Positions 27,356 through 34,333 of a stretch of DNA of 64,000 bases are shown piece after piece. The first letter of the stretch is position 1; every line of letters begins with the position of its first letter. A program made the position numbers and the translations under genes. The stretch is taken from the NCBI GenBank assembly GCA_019636655.1, contig JAHBXB010000002.1:136537-200536 (forward strand), written 5' to 3'. The stretch is from Phycisphaeraceae bacterium (lineage in GTDB: Bacteria > Planctomycetota > Phycisphaerae > Phycisphaerales > UBA1924). A model generated the notes under the pieces. It had not been told where the DNA came from. It searched no databases and saw only the letters and a program-made list of their open reading frames with translations.

Positions 27356-28486
27356 CTACGGATGCTCGGCTTCCCATCGCTCGACGACATCGTGGGCGGC
27401 GCCCGAGTACAGCGTTTGCAGCAGCGTCGGCGCGAGCCCAAGCCCGACCAGGCGTGGAGCGGACATCGCATTGAACCGGTCCGGATCCATCATCATGAGG
27501 TCGGGGTCCGCGATGGGCGAATCACCGTCGAAGGTCGTCTCGAACATCGTCCGCAGTGCCAGGTAACGGCTCGCGTACAGGTCGAACGCCTCCTCGGCGC
27601 TGCTGGCCAGGTCCGCCATCGGACTGGTGGTCGCCTTGGCGGGCTGGAGGTGGTCGTCCGTGGAAACGATGTCGGACCCGAAAAGGATCCGCCCCGTCCA
27701 CTTCGCGAAGAACTCGGCGGTCTGAGCCCTGGGGTGCCGGCCCAGTTCCCGCACGATCCACTTGGTGGCCGAGGTGTCCAGGTACAGGTTCGGGTGCCTC
27801 GCGAGCATCCCGCCGAGGAACTCTAAATCCTCCGGCCATCCCCCCATGTGCGCCGCGATCCACGGGTTTGAGAACCGATCGAGCATCCGCTCGAACCCCT
27901 CGTACTGCTGGCGCTTCGTGCCGAAACGCCGGGCATCGGAGTAGCGGCTGGCGAACCAGGTGTCCGGATCCGCGACATGGATCATGAACATCATCCCCAG
28001 ACGCTCCCCGACCTCGCAGGCCTTCACCCGCCACGCGCTGTCGACTTCCGCGAGGTCGGTCGCGCCCCAGGTTGATTGGGCCAGGTCCGGCACCACCTCC
28101 CGCAATCGCGGCGAGGCCCAGATCTTCAGGATCCGTGATCCCAGGTCGCGCCGGAACAGCTCGATCTCCTGCACGTACCCGGCCCGGTGGGCCCTGTTCT
28201 TGTCGGGGTCCGCCCACGAGGGGAACGCGATGAACCGCACGGCGTCGCCGAGGGCGTCGCGCACCACCGCGGCGCCGGGCCGCTGGGTCATTGAGTAGAT
28301 CCGCCTGACGCCGAAGAGCCGGGCCGCCTCGAGGTGGATGGCCGGGGCCTTCGCACCGGCGAGGTGGGCGTGGATGTCGATGATGGGCGTGACCGGCAAC
28401 CCCAGGCGGGACGCTTCAATGCGGTAATCCAGCCCTAGCCTGTTGGCCGTCCACACCCGCGCCGTGCCCGCCGTGCCGAAACTCAT
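27356..28486 (-). CDS. Amidohydrolase-2-type TIM-barrel hydrolase
   Basis: The 376-aa protein has the metal ligands of the amidohydrolase-2 (ACMS decarboxylase-like) superfamily: H-x-H in IDIHAHLAGA near residue 38, a His in MMFMIHVADPDTW, another in PWIAAHMGGWPE, and the conserved Asp in ILFGSDIVS. Such enzymes are metal-dependent hydrolases or decarboxylases on small carboxylic substrates. The precise substrate cannot be read from the sequence. The true start is the ATG at 28486, 12 bases downstream of GGAGGGG. It is convergent with the chrA-like gene (13 bp) and divergent from the 28520 glycosyltransferase. Confidence 0.8.
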   Translation of the reverse strand: MSFGTAGTARVWTANRLGLDYRIEASRLGLPVTPIIDIHAHLAGAKAPAIHLEAARLFGVRRIYSMTQRPGAAVVRDALGDAVRFIAFPSWADPDKNRAHRAGYVQEIELFRRDLGSRILKIWASPRLREVVPDLAQSTWGATDLAEVDSAWRVKACEVGERLGMMFMIHVADPDTWFASRYSDARRFGTKRQQYEGFERMLDRFSNPWIAAHMGGWPEDLEFLGGMLARHPNLYLDTSATKWIVRELGRHPRAQTAEFFAKWTGRILFGSDIVSTDDHLQPAKATTSPMADLASSAEEAFDLYASRYLALRTMFETTFDGDSPIADPDLMMMDPDRFNAMSAPRLVGLGLAPTLLQTLYSGAAHDVVERWEAEHP

Positions 28487-28519
28487 TGCCCGATGATACC
28501 CCTCCGCCGCGACACCCCG

Positions 28520-29686
28520 ATGCCCCGCGTGGCGCTCGCGCACGACTGGCTGGTCGGATACCGCGGCGGCGAGGCCGTGCTCGACGCGATCGCCTGCGTC
28601 GTCTCCCGCGAGGCGCGGCCCGCGTGCCTGCTGGCCATGTTCGACGACGGCCGGCCGCTGACCCCGGCGATCGATGCGTTGCCCCGGACGATCTCGGCCC
28701 TGAACTCGCTCCCGCTCGCGGCGAGTCGATTGCGGCGGTGGCTCCTGCCGATGTACCCGCTGGCGGTCATGGACCTCTCGCGCCGACTGCAGACACTGCA
28801 CGCGCACGAGCCCATCGACCTGCTCATCTCAACCTCCTCCGCGGCGGTCAAGGGGCTGCGCGCCCCGCGGGGAGTGCCGCACCTGTGCTACTGCCACGCT
28901 CCGGCCCGCTACCTCTGGTCGCAGACCGAGGAGTACGCCTCCGGTTCGTTCGGCCTGGCGCGACGCGCGGGGCTCGGGATCCTCGGCGGCCCGCTGCGCC
29001 GATGGGACGCCGCCACCGCCGCGAACGTGACGGAGTTCATCGCGAACTCCAGCCACACCGCGGAGCACGTCCGCCGGTGTTACGGGCGGAATTCAACGGT
29101 TGTCCACCCGCCGGTGAGGACCGATTTCTTTACGCCCGCACCGCCCGGAAGCCCGCCGGCGCATGCTGGATCGGACGCCCAGGCGGGATTCTGGCTCGTC
29201 GTCTCGGCGCTCGAACCGTACAAACGGATCGACCTGGCCATTCAGGCCGCCAATCGGACGGGGCGGCCTCTCGTGATCGCGGGGCATGGCTCTCAAGAGG
29301 CCCACCTCAGGTCCCTCGCGGGACCCGGCGTGCGGTTCGTGGGGCGGGTCAGTGATGAGAAGCTCCGGGACCTTTACCGCTCGGCCGCACTCTTGCTCTT
29401 CCCGCAGGTTGAAGACTTCGGGATCGTCGCCGGCGAGGCCCTGGCGTGCGGCCTGCCGGTCGTGGCGCGCCGGGCGGGCGGGGCCCTCGACATCGTCACG
29501 GACGGAGTCACGGGCTCGCTCTTCGATTACCCGACCGTCGAGTCCCTGCTCGACGGGATCGGGCGTGCCCCGGATTCGCGATCCAGCGCCGGCGCGTGCC
29601 GGCGTGCCGCCGAGCGTTTCGGCGCCGACGTGTTTGCCGCGGCGATGTCGCAACGGATCAGCGCGGCACTCCGGCGTGATCGCTGA
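28520..29686 (+). CDS. Family 4 glycosyltransferase
   Basis: The 388-aa protein begins MPRVALAHDWLVGYRGGEAV, the N-terminal Rossmann strand and acceptor loop of GT4 enzymes. The C-terminal domain opens with WLVVSALEPYKRIDLAIQA and contains the E-x7-E nucleotide-sugar motif in EDFGIVAGEALACGLPVVAR. It should transfer a sugar (mannosyl- or glucosyl-type donors are common) in surface glycan assembly. The ATG at 28493 is also in frame, but the second ATG at 28520 matches the conserved N-terminus. The gene diverges from the amidohydrolase gene with the starts only about 30 bp apart. No ribosome site is obvious. Confidence 0.88.
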   Translation: MPRVALAHDWLVGYRGGEAVLDAIACVVSREARPACLLAMFDDGRPLTPAIDALPRTISALNSLPLAASRLRRWLLPMYPLAVMDLSRRLQTLHAHEPIDLLISTSSAAVKGLRAPRGVPHLCYCHAPARYLWSQTEEYASGSFGLARRAGLGILGGPLRRWDAATAANVTEFIANSSHTAEHVRRCYGRNSTVVHPPVRTDFFTPAPPGSPPAHAGSDAQAGFWLVVSALEPYKRIDLAIQAANRTGRPLVIAGHGSQEAHLRSLAGPGVRFVGRVSDEKLRDLYRSAALLLFPQVEDFGIVAGEALACGLPVVARRAGGALDIVTDGVTGSLFDYPTVESLLDGIGRAPDSRSSAGACRRAAERFGADVFAAAMSQRISAALRRDR

Positions 29687-29691
29687 GCGGC

Positions 29692-30135
29692 TCAGCCCTC
29701 GTCGGCCCCCACCATGCGCGACTCGGCGATCAGCCGCCGGCCGTCCTCGGTCGTGCACGGCTCGATGGTCGTTCGGCCGCCGAGCGCCCCCTGACGCACG
29801 AGCAGGTACGCCGACTCGCCCGACTGCAGCATGACACGCGACACCGAACTGGAGTTTCCCTCGACGCGCACGAGGTACTCACCCGGCGGCAGCACCTTGG
29901 CGCGGTACTCACCCGGCTGCACCGGGCCGATCGGCTCCTGGTTGAGCACCAGTTCAACGGTTCCGCCGCCGATCATGTCACCGGGGCGGAACATGTAGAT
30001 CACACCCTGCCCACCGGCGAGCTGGGCCGGCCGGAACTCCGGCTTGGGGTTGGCGCACGCCGCCACGACCACTGTCGCAACCACCGCCAATCCCGAAACA
30101 AACCAAGCCATGAACCCGCGTGTGGCGATTGCCAT
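29692..30135 (-). CDS. Small lipoprotein with beta-rich domain
   Basis: The 147-aa product starts MAIATRGFMAWFVSGLAVVA and has the lipobox VVAAC at residues 24-28, so it is lipid-anchored. The mature part resembles small DUF2846-like domains: VIYMFRPG, then a beta-rich segment with QPGEYRAKVLPPGEYLVRVE and SGESAYLLVRQG. That assignment is from memory and unproven. GGAG lies 6 bases before the ATG. It is convergent with the glycosyltransferase stop (5 bp) and diverges from mraZ across a 348-bp regulatory region. Confidence 0.7.
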   Translation of the reverse strand: MAIATRGFMAWFVSGLAVVATVVVAACANPKPEFRPAQLAGGQGVIYMFRPGDMIGGGTVELVLNQEPIGPVQPGEYRAKVLPPGEYLVRVEGNSSSVSRVMLQSGESAYLLVRQGALGGRTTIEPCTTEDGRRLIAESRMVGADEG

Positions 30136-30483
30136 AGGTGCTCCAATGGGGAGTCCACCACCACTCTTGGGGAGAGTCCGTGGATAACTCCGTGCGCGCC
30201 TGAGTGTACCCAAACCCGACTGTTCGTCGGCTGCCAGGCCGGTCCGTGTGGAAGACCTGTGCACATGACCTTGATATTGCTCGACTTACGCCAATCCAGG
30301 CGTCATTTCGCCCTGTGGATGACTCGCCCCCGACACAACGTTCGAGGCGGCCCGAGACAAAAAGTGTGGCAAACATGACTCGATGTGTTGCATTGTGGGG
30401 CAAAGTGGGAGATAATCCCGCGCCTGCCCGGATGCGTTTCCGGCCGGGGACGGAGCCCTCGATGAACTCGGAGCCCATCGCAC
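30136..30483. other. Divergent intergenic region upstream of mraZ
   Basis: This 348-bp stretch holds no gene. It separates the 29692 lipoprotein from mraZ and carries the mraZ promoter at 30386-30416 plus an AT-richer segment. Three near-matches to the DnaA 9-mer (CGTGGATAA 30179-30187, TGTGCACAT 30258-30266, TGTGGATGA 30314-30322) occur but are too weak to call an origin. Confidence 0.5.
30386..30416 (+). promoter_or_regulatory. mraZ promoter with embedded MraZ-box repeats
   Basis: TTGCAT (30388-30393) and GATAAT (30411-30416) form a -35/-10 pair with exactly 17 bp between them. Within that interval the repeats TGTTG (30386-30390), TGGGG (30396-30400) and TGGGA (30406-30410) follow each other with 5-bp spacers. 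That is the known MraZ operator pattern of TGGGN direct repeats; the first copy is degenerate. MraZ bound here would block RNA polymerase, giving self-repression. The start codon is about 60 bp downstream. Confidence 0.85.
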
Positions 30484-30945
30484 GTGCTCTTCACCGGCCA
30501 ATCACTGCACTCGATCGATTCGAAGCTGCGGCTGGCGATCCCGGCGAAGTACCGCAACCAGTGGAAGACCTCCCGCGACGGCGAGGCGTGGTATTGCCTG
30601 CCGTGGCCGACCGGGCACCTGAGGCTCTACACCGAGGCGAGGTTCGTGGAACTGGCCGAGCAGGGCGAGGCCACGCTGACCCCCGATTCGGCCGAGGCGA
30701 GCCTCGAGACGGTCCTGTTCGGATTCGCCGAGAGGCTCGAAGAGGACAAGGCCGGTCGGATCACCATCCCCCGTGCCCACCTCGACCGGGCGACGATCGG
30801 GTCGGACGTGGTCGTTGTCGGCGCCCGATTCAGGCTGGAGATCCACGACCGAGCGCGGTGGGACGCCTCGGCGACGGACATGTTCAACCGCCTTCCGGAG
30901 TTCATCGATTCAACCGCGGCTCGTAGGGGGCAGGCGCCCCGCTGA
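30484..30945 (+). CDS. mraZ: Transcriptional regulator MraZ
   Basis: The 153-aa protein has the two SpoVT/AbrB-like halves of MraZ, with LHSIDSKLRLAIPAKYRNQW in the first and LEEDKAGRITIPRAHLDRAT in the second. MraZ forms a ring-shaped oligomer that binds TGGGN repeats and usually represses the division/cell-wall cluster that it heads. Here the start is GTG, with GGAG about 10 bases upstream. The usual downstream partners rsmH and ftsL are absent; a 319-bp gap and convergent genes follow. The regulator therefore stands alone, with a clean operator of its own. Confidence 0.93.
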   Translation: MLFTGQSLHSIDSKLRLAIPAKYRNQWKTSRDGEAWYCLPWPTGHLRLYTEARFVELAEQGEATLTPDSAEASLETVLFGFAERLEEDKAGRITIPRAHLDRATIGSDVVVVGARFRLEIHDRARWDASATDMFNRLPEFIDSTAARRGQAPR

Positions 30946-31264
30946 TTCCGTTTGAGAGAGAGTTGCCCGGCCGGGCGGAGACGGTCGACCCGGGCGTTGT
31001 CAGGGATGACAGGTCAGTTCATGACCGACAGTGAGAGGCCCGCTGGGAGCGATCGAACGGATTCGTTGTTCCGTCCGGACCGGGTGACAGGGTGTGACGC
31101 AGGGACGCGTCCGCCATCCACGCAGGACGCCGTTTTGTGCGGCTGAGCGCCCTGCAATGGACATCCGGCCGGGCTGGTGAACGGAGCACTTCCCACGCGG
31201 CAACTACGGCGTCCGGGCGGACCACCACCGCCCGGACGCTGTCGTCTTGGGCGTGCTGAATCGG
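30946..31264. other. Convergent intergenic region after mraZ
   Basis: No coding frame is supported in this 319-bp stretch. It contains the strong inverted repeat at 31209-31239 that probably ends both converging transcripts. Nothing else is recognised. Confidence 0.5.
31209..31239. terminator. Hairpin between convergent mraZ and ankyrin genes
   Basis: A perfect 12-bp inverted repeat, GCGTCCGGGCGG and CCGCCCGGACGC with a 7-nt loop, lies between the convergent stops. No T-run follows on either strand, so it may act as a transcript-stabilising 3' end or a weak bidirectional terminator. Confidence 0.6.
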
Positions 31265-32200
31265 CTACTTCTTCTTCTGAAGCAGGGCCGCCACAGCGGC
31301 GCCCTTGTCGTCACCGCGGGTCGCGGCGTGATCGGCGGCGGTCCAGCCGCGGAGGTCGACCGCATCCGGCGGGGCGCCGGCCTCGAGCAGCATCGCGACC
31401 ATCTCGGTATCGCCGCGCAGCGCCGCCTTCATGAGCGGGGTGACCCCATCGGCATCGGCCTGGTCGGCCTTGGCTCCGGCATCAATCAGGGCCCGCAGCA
31501 TCGCCGCGGAAGCACGGTCGCTCGCGGCCGCGACCGAGAGGGCCGTGTTGCGGTCCTTGTCCGCGGTCATGGTGGCGGCACCCGCCGAGATCAGCATCGC
31601 TACCTTGGCCGGGTCGCCGGACTGGGCGGCGAGCATCAGCGCGGTCTGGCGGTACTTGTTGCCGGCGTTGGGGTCGGCACCGGCACCAAGGAGGGCCTGG
31701 AGCGTCGCCGCCTCGCCGCGGGCCGCGGCGAGCATCAGCGGGGTAAGCCCAACGTCGGTCCGCGGGTCGGCCCGCGCGCCGGCCTCGAGCAGGGCCTGCA
31801 CGCTGGAGGGTCCGCCCCACCCCGCGGCAAAGTACAGGGCCGTGCGGCCGTCGTCGGTGCGAGCATCGAGCCGGCACTTGCCCTCGATGAGCGTCTGGAT
31901 GGCTTCGGGCTTGCCCGCCATGGAGGCCGCCATGAGCGGGGTCATCCCCCGCCGGGAGGGATCGTCCGATTCGTACCGCAAGTCCACGGGTGCCCCCGCG
32001 GCAATCGCGGCCCGGATCGCGGCGACGTCGCCGGCGCCCGCCGCATCAAACAGCGATGCGGCGGAGCCGGAAGGAGCCTCGGCAGCAGCGGGCTGCGCCG
32101 TCGTCGCGATCGACTTGACGACGTACACCGCCGCAGCGCCCACAACGATCAGGAGCAACAACAGGAGCCAGTGCGTCTTGCGGGCGTGATGCTCGGACAT
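31265..32200 (-). CDS. Membrane-anchored ankyrin-repeat protein
   Basis: The 311-aa protein has a short polar N-terminus, one transmembrane helix (LLLLLLIVVGAAAVYVV, residues 12-28), a low-complexity Ala/Pro linker, and about seven ankyrin repeats from residue 48 on. Repeats are recognised by TPLMAAS-, TALYFAA-, TPLMLAA-, TALMLAA-, TALSVAA- and TPLMKAA-type openings with GA-type turns. It should sit in the cytoplasmic membrane with the repeats on one side, probably binding another protein. No enzymatic domain. It is convergent with mraZ and 51 bp downstream of the EF-G-like gene. Confidence 0.9.
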   Translation of the reverse strand: MSEHHARKTHWLLLLLLIVVGAAAVYVVKSIATTAQPAAAEAPSGSAASLFDAAGAGDVAAIRAAIAAGAPVDLRYESDDPSRRGMTPLMAASMAGKPEAIQTLIEGKCRLDARTDDGRTALYFAAGWGGPSSVQALLEAGARADPRTDVGLTPLMLAAARGEAATLQALLGAGADPNAGNKYRQTALMLAAQSGDPAKVAMLISAGAATMTADKDRNTALSVAAASDRASAAMLRALIDAGAKADQADADGVTPLMKAALRGDTEMVAMLLEAGAPPDAVDLRGWTAADHAATRGDDKGAAVAALLQKKK

Positions 32201-32251
32201 CGGTGGGATGCTCCTGCGGGTGTACGACGGAGGCCGCCGTGGGAATGCCGG

Positions 32252-34333
32252 TCATTCGTCGGGGTGGGGCTTGTACGCGGCGACGACATCCTGCTGGATG
32301 TGCGGCGGCGTGCGCTCGTCGTGGCTGTAGTCCATGGTGTACGCGCCCTGCCCGCCGGTCATGCTCTTGAGCTCGTTCGAGAAGTTCTGCAGTTCCGCCA
32401 GCGGGGCCTGGGCCTTGATGATCGCGGTGCCGTCCGAACCCACGTCCGTGTCGAGCACGCGCCCGCGCTTGCCCGAGAGCAGGCCGGACAGGTCGCCCAT
32501 GTGCTGACTCGGCAAGGTGACCTCCAGCATCACGAACGGCTCCATCAGCACCGGCTTGGCCTTCTGGATCGCATCGATGAACGCCTTCTTGCCGGCGGTG
32601 ACAAACGCCACTTCCTTGCTGTCGACGTCGTGGTACTTGCCGTCGTACAGGGCCACGCGCACGCCTGTCAGCGGATAGCCGGCGATCGCGCCGTCGCTGA
32701 GAACCTGCCGGCACCCCTTCTCCACGGCGGGCCAGAACTGGCGCGGCACCGTCCCCCCCACCACCTCGGAGACGAACTCGAACCCATCCGGATGGTCCGG
32801 CGGCAGCGGCTCGACACGCAGATAGACCTCGCCGAACTGACCGGCCCCGCCGGTCTGCTTCTTGTGCCGGTGGTGCCCCTCGGAACGCGAGGTGATGGTC
32901 TCCTTGTACGCGATCCGCGGCTTGCTGGTCTCCAGGTCGATGTTGTAGCCGGCCTTGAGCCGCTCCAGGATCACGCGCAGGTGCAGCTCGCCGAGCCCGC
33001 GCATCACCGTCTGCTTCGTCGCCGCGATCCGCTCGATGCGGAAGCACGGGTCCTCCTCCATCAGCTTGTGGCAGGCGGTGGCGAACTTCGTCTCGTCGGC
33101 ATGGTTCTTCAGTTCGACCGCCAGGCCGAACAACGGGCGGGGCAGGGCCAACGGGAGCAGGTGCACCGAGTCGTGCTCGTGGCTGTCGTGCAGCACGCCG
33201 TCGAAGTGCGCCTCGTCGATCTTGGCCAGCACGCCGATATCCCCGGCGGTCACGTCGTGCACCTCCGCCATCTCCTTGCCCTGGGCCTTGAAGAGGTGCC
33301 CCACGCGGATGGGCTTCTTCTGGTCGTTGATGAACAAGTCGGCCTTGGTCTTGACCGTCCCAGAGAGGACACGGAAGTACGCGAGTTTCCCCACGAACGG
33401 ATCGGCCGTCACCTTGAAGATGTGCGCAATCGTTTTCCCCGCCGGGTCCGGCTCGGGGGTGAACGGCAGCTCGTCCCCGGTTTCGCCGGAGGGCGCGATC
33501 GGCCGGTAGAGAAACTCGGGGGGCATCACCTCCGTCGGCGCGGGGCACAGGTCGGCGAACAGGTGCAGCAGGTCCTCGATGCCCGCCCCGGTCTTGGCCG
33601 AGACGAAGCAGATGGGCACCAGGTGCCCCTCGCCCAGGCACTTCTCGAACGCCGCGTGCACCTTTTCGGGGTCGAGCTGGTCGGCCTTCTCCAGGTACGT
33701 TTCCATCAGCGACTCTTCGACCTCGACAATCTGCTCGATGATCGCCCGATGGGCTTCCTTTACCGAGGAAAAGTCCGCATCGTCCCCGGCGTCGTCGGTC
33801 CCGTCGTGGTCGAAGACGTTGACGACATCCTTTCGGTTCTTCGTCGGCAGGTTGATCGGTAGACAGATGGAGCCGAACGCCTCGCGGAGGCGCCCGACGA
33901 GATCCTCGAGCCTGGCCTCGGTGGCCTCCATCTTCGTCACGATGATCATCCGCGGGATATGCCGCTCCTCCGCGATCGACATCAGCCGGCGCGTGGTCGA
34001 CTCGATCCCCCGCACCGCATCGACCGCGACCGCGACGGTCTCTGCCGCGGGCATCGCGGCGATCGCGTGCCCAATGAAGTCCGACAGCCCGGGCGTGTCG
34101 ATCAGGTTCACCAGGTGGCCGTGGAAGTCGAAGTGCACCGGCGTGGCCGAGAGGGAGTGCTTGTGCGCCTTCTCCTCGGGCGAGTTGTCCGAGACGGTGG
34201 TGCCCTCCTCGACCGTCCCGATGCGTTTGGTCGCCTTCGCCTCGAAGAGCAGCCGCTCGACCAGCGTCGTCTTCCCGCATCCCCCGTGACCCGTAAGAAC
34301 AATGTTGCGGATGTCGGCGGGTGCGTGGGCCAT
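32252..34333 (-). CDS. EF-G-like translational GTPase (EF-G paralogue)
   Basis: The 693-aa protein has the full EF-G domain order. It starts with a GTPase with P-loop GHGGCGKTT (residues 15-23), switch-1-like EGTTVSDNSPEE and G3 DTPG, then a beta-barrel domain II (FKVTADPFVGKLAYFRVLSG), domain III, domain IV (GGAGQFGEVYLRVEPLPP) and domain V (MLEVTLPSQHMGDLSGLLSG). The sequence resembles the EF-G II/EF-G-like branch (G-H-x-G-x-GKTT) rather than canonical EF-G. The G4 motif is TKME instead of NKxD. A standard fusA, with rpsL/rpsG, is not in this window. GGAGG precedes the ATG. Role as translocase, recycling factor or stress-specific paralogue is open. Confidence 0.85.
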   Translation of the reverse strand: MAHAPADIRNIVLTGHGGCGKTTLVERLLFEAKATKRIGTVEEGTTVSDNSPEEKAHKHSLSATPVHFDFHGHLVNLIDTPGLSDFIGHAIAAMPAAETVAVAVDAVRGIESTTRRLMSIAEERHIPRMIIVTKMEATEARLEDLVGRLREAFGSICLPINLPTKNRKDVVNVFDHDGTDDAGDDADFSSVKEAHRAIIEQIVEVEESLMETYLEKADQLDPEKVHAAFEKCLGEGHLVPICFVSAKTGAGIEDLLHLFADLCPAPTEVMPPEFLYRPIAPSGETGDELPFTPEPDPAGKTIAHIFKVTADPFVGKLAYFRVLSGTVKTKADLFINDQKKPIRVGHLFKAQGKEMAEVHDVTAGDIGVLAKIDEAHFDGVLHDSHEHDSVHLLPLALPRPLFGLAVELKNHADETKFATACHKLMEEDPCFRIERIAATKQTVMRGLGELHLRVILERLKAGYNIDLETSKPRIAYKETITSRSEGHHRHKKQTGGAGQFGEVYLRVEPLPPDHPDGFEFVSEVVGGTVPRQFWPAVEKGCRQVLSDGAIAGYPLTGVRVALYDGKYHDVDSKEVAFVTAGKKAFIDAIQKAKPVLMEPFVMLEVTLPSQHMGDLSGLLSGKRGRVLDTDVGSDGTAIIKAQAPLAELQNFSNELKSMTGGQGAYTMDYSHDERTPPHIQQDVVAAYKPHPDE

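Follow-up and report, generated by a model that had tools for sequence, protein, structure and literature searches.

What does MraZ control when no division gene stands behind it? The role of this regulator beyond the dcw cluster is unsettled, and the planctomycete order examined here (Phycisphaerales) combines an mraZ gene away from rsmH and a strongly conserved mraZ operator with genomes in which FtsZ was not found (0 of 61). We addressed this question in a 64,000-nucleotide stretch of a Phycisphaeraceae genome (the window, from host genome G000), for which a preliminary description had pointed to MraZ-type repeats at the promoter of an isolated mraZ.

A three-box element over the mraZ promoter

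The mraZ gene of the window (30484..30945, plus strand; 153 aa, GTG start, both DxxxR motifs) is preceded on the same strand by three boxes spaced at an exact 10-bp period across 30386-30410: TGTTG (30386..30390), a degenerate box read from the sequence, followed by TGGGG (30396..30400) and TGGGA (30406..30410), both seen in the sequence and in an alignment of relatives. Letter counts for box 1 among 45 order genomes were T40 G44 T44 T44 G45, and a 19-nt stretch in the box 2 region (ATTGTGGGGCAAAGTGGGA) is identical to one upstream of E. coli K-12 mraZ. The promoter, also on the plus strand, consists of a -35 element TTGCAT (30388..30393), whose TTG is near-invariant in the alignment of relatives and in whose place several relatives carry TTGACA, and, after a 17-nt spacer, a -10 element GATAAT (30411..30416), whose positions 2 (A) and 6 (T) are near-invariant, as expected for sigma-70 -10 elements. 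The preliminary description had all three repeats covering the 17-bp spacer; their letters and positions were correct, but box 1 overlaps the -35 hexamer, so that the spacer contains only box 2 and box 3. Directly after the -10, TCCC (30416..30419, plus strand; TCCCA in many relatives) continues in the same 10-bp register as the boxes. CCC stands in this position in 28 of 45 order genomes (22 with CCCA), and follows 43 of 816 NANNNT sites in the same upstream regions, a total that includes the -10 sites counted above. This TCCC(A) may be an inverted box or a C-rich discriminator.

A search of the 3,660,709 bases of the host genome for the exact pattern TGTTGN5TGGGGN5TGGG gave a single location, that at mraZ; no copy differed by one mismatch, and the 36 two-mismatch copies are similar in number to the 31 returned by a reversed-pattern control. 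A sequence-only operator model, built from an alignment of 44 relatives with the window excluded, scored the mraZ promoter at 40.3 bits (E = 7e-10) and the next, partial matches at 12.4 and 11.2 bits (best 150 of 560 first-look candidates scored). The model found a match in 52 of 61 order genomes (E <= 0.1, best 104 candidates per genome scored), 44 of the 61 having also supplied the model, and in 128 of 161 order genomes (E <= 0.01, best 39 candidates scored). By coordinates, the best match lay upstream of mraZ in 51 of the 52, the exception (G036) being a weak match of 16 bits on a different contig; G020, one of the 51, lacks an MraZ match in the protein search, and its operator match at a contig end is followed by the first part of mraZ, cut by the contig end. 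A phylum-wide sample yielded matches in 20 of 199 genomes (E <= 0.05, best 31 candidates scored), 7 of them from the order and 13 from elsewhere, with 7 of those 13 in family f30. At least 16 of 21 consensus positions were present upstream of mraZ in 45 of 58 order genomes, vs. 6 of 3480 shuffled upstream regions; because this consensus was read off the same sequences, the one out-of-sample test is that with the model.

Searches for further MraZ sites in the 61 genomes (best 104 candidates each) gave second matches of at most 15.8 bits, which we treated as chance. A second target at rsmH was likewise considered and set aside, as the 8-kb rsmH region of the host genome holds two relaxed box pairs, one inside the upstream neighbor of rsmH and the other past the far end of rsmH, both judged chance. 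The proposal that this MraZ regulates itself alone agrees with the genome scan, which turned up one exact three-box site and no second strong operator in the host genome, and the conservation of the repeats in relatives, on which the preliminary description depended, is borne out by the model matches in the order. That the boxes are instead a chance motif of a GC-rich promoter, with mraZ not autoregulated, appears exceedingly improbable: a generic sigma-70 scan left the window's mraZ promoter uncalled, and TTGCAT matches TTGACA at only 3 of 6 positions, but the site is unique in the genome, conserved in the order, and shares its 19-nt identity with E. coli. At the level of sequence, we therefore regard the three-box MraZ-type element over the mraZ promoter as confirmed, being both real and conserved in relatives. 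In one order genome (G017, locus L075), the first DNA-binding loop of MraZ is longer by one residue (DPANYR) and TGTCA repeats at a roughly 10-bp period lie upstream of mraZ, a possible case of protein and operator co-variation.

The position of the boxes is the part that stands out. In E. coli, the boxes TGGGAaattgTGGGGcaaagTGGGA come after TTGACA-18-TAAACT, i.e., downstream of the -10, and the accessible portion of PMC7761207 places both the Burkholderia and the E. coli MraZ boxes there, whereas those of the window overlap the -35 to -10 region, unlike this start-site placement. Under a common scoring, the best array lay downstream of the -10 in 25 of 28 scored phylum loci outside the class, the other 3 being "partial" (overlapping the promoter or shifted upstream), and in 10 of 10 scored loci (of 11) from other phyla. 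Among the 57 order genomes scored, the best three-box array lay within the promoter in 30, partly inside or shifted upstream in 23, and downstream in 4; one more order genome (L008) had no promoter call and so went unscored. Also unscored, for want of a start matching the pattern, were L187, L160, the four f30 loci and two of the four class loci; L171 went into the tally of its class. In 40 of the 57, the array began at -15, -25, -35 or -45 relative to the -10, i.e., in one helical phase, which we give as descriptive only because box and promoter picks overlap in sequence and are not independent.

We also considered whether the embedded geometry arose together with the loss of rsmH as a neighbor, and rejected this idea, since by eye the rsmH-linked loci of G116, G199 and family f30 look embedded too, while G184, one of the two class loci scored for geometry, was downstream; geometry is thus not tied to orphaning. 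The comparison of promoter geometry envisaged in the preliminary description accordingly found the embedded form to be frequent in the order and, by eye, present in rsmH-linked relatives. The operator over the core promoter of an orphan mraZ is supported, isolation as the notable feature was incomplete, and the interpretation offered there is partly supported overall.

A single mraZ gene apart from rsmH

The encoded protein matches PF02381 at 58.6 bits in 2 stretches (cut-off 23), and D12, R16, D88 and R92 are invariant in 59 sequences (58 from the order and that of E. coli, in which we take R15 to be the DNA-contacting arginine). MraZ forms rings whose subunits each have two AbrB-like domains, and solved MraZ chains in the PDB match ours by sequence (9qlr, 9qlg, 9sx6, 1n0e). 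The host genome has one MraZ gene, and this gene keeps both DxxxR motifs, unlike the paralogue without DNA-binding residues that the preliminary description had named as a possible objection.

The earlier observation that no rsmH follows mraZ extends well beyond the window. In the host genome the two genes lie on different contigs (mraZ on C2, rsmH on C3), and rsmH adjoins mraZ in 0 of 58 order loci (flanks of 1.5-3 kb) and in 0 of 60 further order regions (about 1.9 kb, reaching about 1 kb behind mraZ). Outside the order, rsmH is near mraZ in 27 of 30 loci of the phylum sample, one of the three loci without it (L183) being a cut contig, and in 4 of 4 other class genomes and 4 of 4 genomes of family f30; the 30 phylum loci include one same-class genome (G116) that is also among the four class genomes. 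Because rsmH adjoins mraZ in most phylum loci but in no order locus, the orphaning of mraZ looks derived in the order. The order loci examined showed no dcw cluster, taken as mraZ followed by rsmH and division genes, and FtsZ (PF00091) was found in none of 61 order genomes, compared with 13 of 14 positive control genomes. An isolated MraZ had been called notable for Planctomycetes; the orphan state stands, but the gene is widespread in the phylum (175 of 199 genomes) and outside the order usually sits beside rsmH.

Gene calls in 73 order regions, made with a composition heuristic and with at least 4 genomes present twice, gave a gap behind mraZ that measured 300-700 nt in 51 of 68 cases, with 5 shorter and 12 longer gaps. 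The next gene was on the minus strand in 38 cases and on the plus strand in 30, and the upstream gene was divergent in 56 of 68. In the window, the divergent gene (29695-30264, minus strand) is lipoprotein-like with weak DUF2846 similarity (27.1 bits, cut-off 34.3), and farther out lies an amidohydrolase gene (27359-28630, minus strand; PF04909) whose relatives, a cluster of 30 members, recur around mraZ in many regions of the order.

ANGGAN hairpins behind mraZ

What occupies the gap behind mraZ was left unmentioned in the preliminary description, whose reading is incomplete in this respect: it holds an array of CsrA-type hairpins. The array of the window is modest, with three plus-strand ANGGAN hairpins, two of which, considered in isolation, are no more stable than shuffles: TTGTC-AGGGAT-GACAG (30997..31012; -4.9 kcal/mol, z -0.65), CGA-ACGGAT-TCG (31054..31065; -2.1 kcal/mol, z 0.77; weak alone), and GACGC-AGGGAC-GCGTC (31096..31111; -10.7 kcal/mol, z -1.55). 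Two extra ANGGA motifs on the same strand (at 31157 and 31181, within 31157..31185) lack a 3-bp closing stem.

Across the order, the array is specific to one strand. The first 400 nt after the mraZ stop in 58 order genomes contain 129 ANGGAN hexaloop hairpins in sense and 1 in antisense, with dinucleotide shuffles giving a mean of 6.0 (sd 2.0, max 11). Genomes carry 0-6 each, with at least one in 54 of 58 and at least two in 39; no stem-3 hairpin was found in this interval in G006, G035, G048 and G051 (4 of 58). Of 140 sense hairpins in the 900 nt after mraZ, 126 fall in the first 300 nt, the first at a median of 103 nt after the stop and with a median spacing of 51 nt. A second set of 60 genomes, chosen as the best-scoring new operator matches of the 161-genome scan and fetched before the region behind mraZ was viewed, gave 142 sense and 4 antisense hairpins (shuffles: mean 6.2, sd 2.5, max 13), with at least one in 59 of 60 and at least two in 43; this set is not fully independent, because several of its genomes share genera with the first. 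Ten named contigs contributed 21 sense and 0 antisense hairpins, 1 of the 10 being without any; five named loci from the same genomes as the first set were excluded from this count, and one of the ten (L147) is the same genome as G350 of the second set.

The array is also specific to the loop. In the second set, ten altered loop motifs gave 2-18 hairpins each vs. 142, and a hexaloop census blind to loop sequence returned ANGGA[CTA] for all ten of the commonest loops, led by AAGGAC, ACGGAC, AGGGAC, ATGGAC and AAGGAT. Sense-minus-antisense hexamer counts were topped by CACGGA, CAAGGA and AAGGAC. In minimum free energy folds of 320 nt, GGA fell in 160 of 421 sense hairpin loops (100 of them ANGGA) vs. 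4 of 419 antisense loops (0 ANGGA), and the g23 alignment used alongside these folds caught 3 of 4 genomes. The loop is closed by a C-G pair in 90 of 129 hairpins. These details bear on the reading in which operator and promoter are real but mraZ is a plain orphan autoregulator, its hairpins being structural or bound by a factor other than CsrA, e.g., as Shine-Dalgarno-like loops. GGA in a loop does resemble a ribosome-binding site, but the free loop position 2 (A42 C38 G25 T24), the common C-G closing pair and the rarity of G-, C- and T-NGGAN loops in the second set (9, 11 and 2 vs. 142) argue against this reading, which we hold to be quite improbable.

Stretches downstream of mraZ showed little primary conservation in BLASTN comparisons, so the hairpins were found by loop motif. 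Among five alignable congeners (g234), a structure hand-written from the same five sequences pairs in 92.7% of cells (shuffled 89.2), and six pairs changed on both sides, compared with an average of 2.3 in shuffles, 1 of 500 of which scored as high. Sliding the pairing partners drops pairing to 35-48%; helix 1 pairs less well (77.8%), and no variation is seen in the terminator helix. Origin from a dispersed repeat was judged unlikely, as stems differ between copies. A known RNA behind mraZ, such as RNase P or tmRNA, was suspected and then rejected, as Rfam gave no match in window 29000-32500 (E <= 1) or in 16 mraZ loci of relatives (gathering score).

Control stretches (the window and twenty 20-kb stretches, 18 of G000 and 2 of G023, 928 kb counting both strands) held 62 stem-4 hairpins vs. 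60-87 in five shuffles, i.e., no overall enrichment, and the only cluster of three hairpins within 300 nt was that behind mraZ. Genome-wide use of ANGGAN hairpins was rejected on the basis of these sampled stretches, though rsmH emerged as a second enriched place. Density around rsmH was 0.13 hairpins per 400 nt, with three clusters at or behind the rsmH end; behind rsmH, 37 genomes (37 of 38 loci were long enough to count) gave 35 sense and 0 antisense hairpins, with at least one in 26 (e.g., L094 3207-3340, L100 3760-4050). Sites of this kind are therefore not exclusive to mraZ; those behind rsmH may represent a CsrA site within the leader of the gene that follows. Eight rsmH-linked mraZ loci from the class and f30 held one hairpin in all.

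The array of the window is followed by a GC hairpin with a T-containing tail (31206..31242, plus strand, core 31209-31239; -32.6 kcal/mol, z -5.3), a probable intrinsic terminator of the mraZ transcript. A stock terminator scan called none in the window. Our own scan, which had no control, found terminator-like structures in 42 of 58 order genomes, with a median end 371.5 nt after the mraZ stop. In the first 250 nt behind mraZ of the 58 order genomes, the word TTGACA occurs 14 times in sense vs. once in antisense, and TTGACAA 11 times vs. 0.

This excess of TTGACA, together with a first hairpin at a median of 103 nt after the stop, favors a reading in which the array is a separate small RNA gene, transcribed from a promoter of its own behind mraZ and outside MraZ control. 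We consider this unlikely, given that no -10 follows the TTGACA words in the few viewed by eye, and that in G051 the hairpins lie between the MraZ operator and mraZ. There, a 538-nt leader contains four motif matches (two overlapping), an argument that it is the promoter, and not one particular side of the gene, to which the array is linked.

Hairpins ahead of the gene are also found in other genomes, with 9 sense and 0 antisense (shuffle mean 0.4) between -10 and start codon among 50 genomes, distributed over 8 genomes including that of the window, whose candidate (30446-30459) lies in a stretch for which another fold is better. Family f5 (G040, G044, G048, G052, G056, G060) carries an ANGGAN hairpin ahead of the mraZ start codon, at a distance of about 19-25 nt, e.g., GAGC-AAGGAT-GCTC. 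Leader hairpins occupy the usual place of CsrA control, and they, along with the location of all the hairpins on the presumed mraZ transcript and the fact that a few sites could equally serve control of the mraZ mRNA, favor a reading in which the transcript is a CsrA target and not a decoy: CsrA would control the stability or processing of the mraZ mRNA, and MraZ would have another job. We rate this as somewhat unlikely, though the most credible of the alternatives. Most sites lie behind the stop codon, in multiple copies (at least two in 39 of 58 genomes, at a median spacing of 51 nt), whereas described control sites are mainly 5' in the available part of PMC4894983, and the leader hairpins of G051 indicate that position relative to mraZ is not fixed.

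CsrA, the proposed unit and its known counterparts

CsrA (PF02599) is encoded in 61 of 61 order genomes, mostly with two matches, and one of the two CsrA proteins of the host genome, inspected by eye, keeps L4 and the VHR arginine, which we take to be RNA-binding residues. FliW, which acts elsewhere as a protein antagonist of CsrA, was found in 60 of 61, and with it in place a further antagonist would not be strictly required. In 6 of 6 genomes of family f2 (G037, G042, G046, G050, G054, G058; loci L218-L223), the mraZ stop is followed at 344-539 nt by a second csrA, with hairpins in the interval, and csrA is in the mraZ region of 23 of 24 further f2 genomes vs. 0 of 36 others. This paralogue (MLVITRREGEEVVIG...) sits just past the hairpin array in either orientation; the 64-kb window contains no csrA paralogue.

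The reading we find probable is that of an autorepressed orphan-MraZ unit whose transcript very probably binds CsrA, most likely as a decoy. Based on the conservation of the operator and on described MraZ proteins, MraZ would bind the three helically phased boxes over -35, spacer and -10 and keep RNA polymerase off by occlusion; as MraZ bound at its own promoter would block RNA polymerase, the mraZ level would be held constant. A single transcript of some 820 nt is expected to carry mraZ and then the hairpins, ending at the GC hairpin near 31242. That it very probably binds CsrA follows from its several ANGGAN hairpins, mostly C-G closed in the order, this being the CsrA/RsmE element: the target of RsmE is a conserved hairpin whose loop is an ANGGAN hexanucleotide (as described in the part of PMC7652899 available), and in Campylobacter high-affinity CANGGANG apical hexaloops are reported, on an mRNA that titrates CsrA together with FliW (available part of PMC4894983). 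MraZ autorepression would then set the number of CsrA sites on the decoy transcript, with titration, rather than CsrA control of mraZ, as its presumptive purpose.

A broader proposal, which we advance tentatively and with less confidence, is that MraZ has been re-employed in this order: freed from FtsZ and the dcw cluster, it would regulate only its own promoter, its transcript would act as a CsrA sponge that buffers the supply of CsrA-binding RNA and links MraZ to CsrA-FliW, and a csrA paralogue would have joined the locus in one family. The orphan unit would thereby have a testable output, an RNA with CsrA-type hairpins. In the accessible text of PMC4682653, Planctomycetes are proposed to use FliW control, and the CsrA-sequestering small RNAs in the accessible parts of PMC7652899 and PMC4894983 are described from Gammaproteobacteria; an RNA arm in FliW-bearing genomes (60 of 61), if true, would alter this FliW-instead picture for Planctomycetes. 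Titles and abstract openings among the literature matches listed mention neither a link between MraZ and CsrA nor a CsrA decoy RNA of Planctomycetes.

On the operator side, the closest comparison is E. coli MraZ and the Pmra promoter of its dcw cluster (Eraso et al. 2014, as cited in the excerpts of PMC8475190 and PMC7761207), with the same protein family, TGGGN boxes and a 10-bp period. There, the boxes lie downstream of the -10 and mraZ is followed by rsmH and ftsL, whereas in the host they cover -35 to -10 and mraZ stands alone. The Burkholderia cenocepacia MraZ site, bound at the mraZ promoter, comprises four 7-nt repeats with 3-nt spacers (available part of PMC7761207) and hence has a 10-bp period like the host boxes; it lies downstream of the -10 and overlaps the transcription start, whereas the host boxes are upstream, over the promoter. 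The Mollicute site (AAAGTGKN3)3 likewise consists of 10-bp direct repeats, and its sole chromosomal occurrence in M. genitalium is the mraZ promoter (PMC5282649 and PMC8475190, in the parts available). The host box unit AAAGTGGGG fits both the Mollicute and the E. coli consensus. In the cluster that these two sources give for Mollicutes, mraZ is joined by mraW, MG_223 and ftsZ, in contrast to the host mraZ, which has no division gene after it and no FtsZ found in its genome.

On the RNA side, the array shares with Csr/Rsm-type RNAs multiple ANGGAN hairpins on one strand in a genome that encodes CsrA. CsrB/CsrC and RsmX/Y/Z of Gammaproteobacteria carry several GGA stem-loops with ANGGAN loops and sequester CsrA (excerpts of PMC7652899 and PMC4894983); the host array is alike, with sequestration presumed, but differs in lying behind an mRNA and in showing no homology to CsrB, CsrC or RsmX/Y/Z by Rfam in window 29000-32500 and 16 relatives' loci. 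A coding transcript with this activity is the Campylobacter jejuni flaA mRNA, which has ANGGA hexaloops and titrates CsrA with FliW present, its two loops lying in the 5' UTR of the flagellin gene (PMC4894983, in the part available), whereas in the order of the host 0-6 loops per genome follow an mRNA whose product, a transcription factor, is presumed to be autorepressed.
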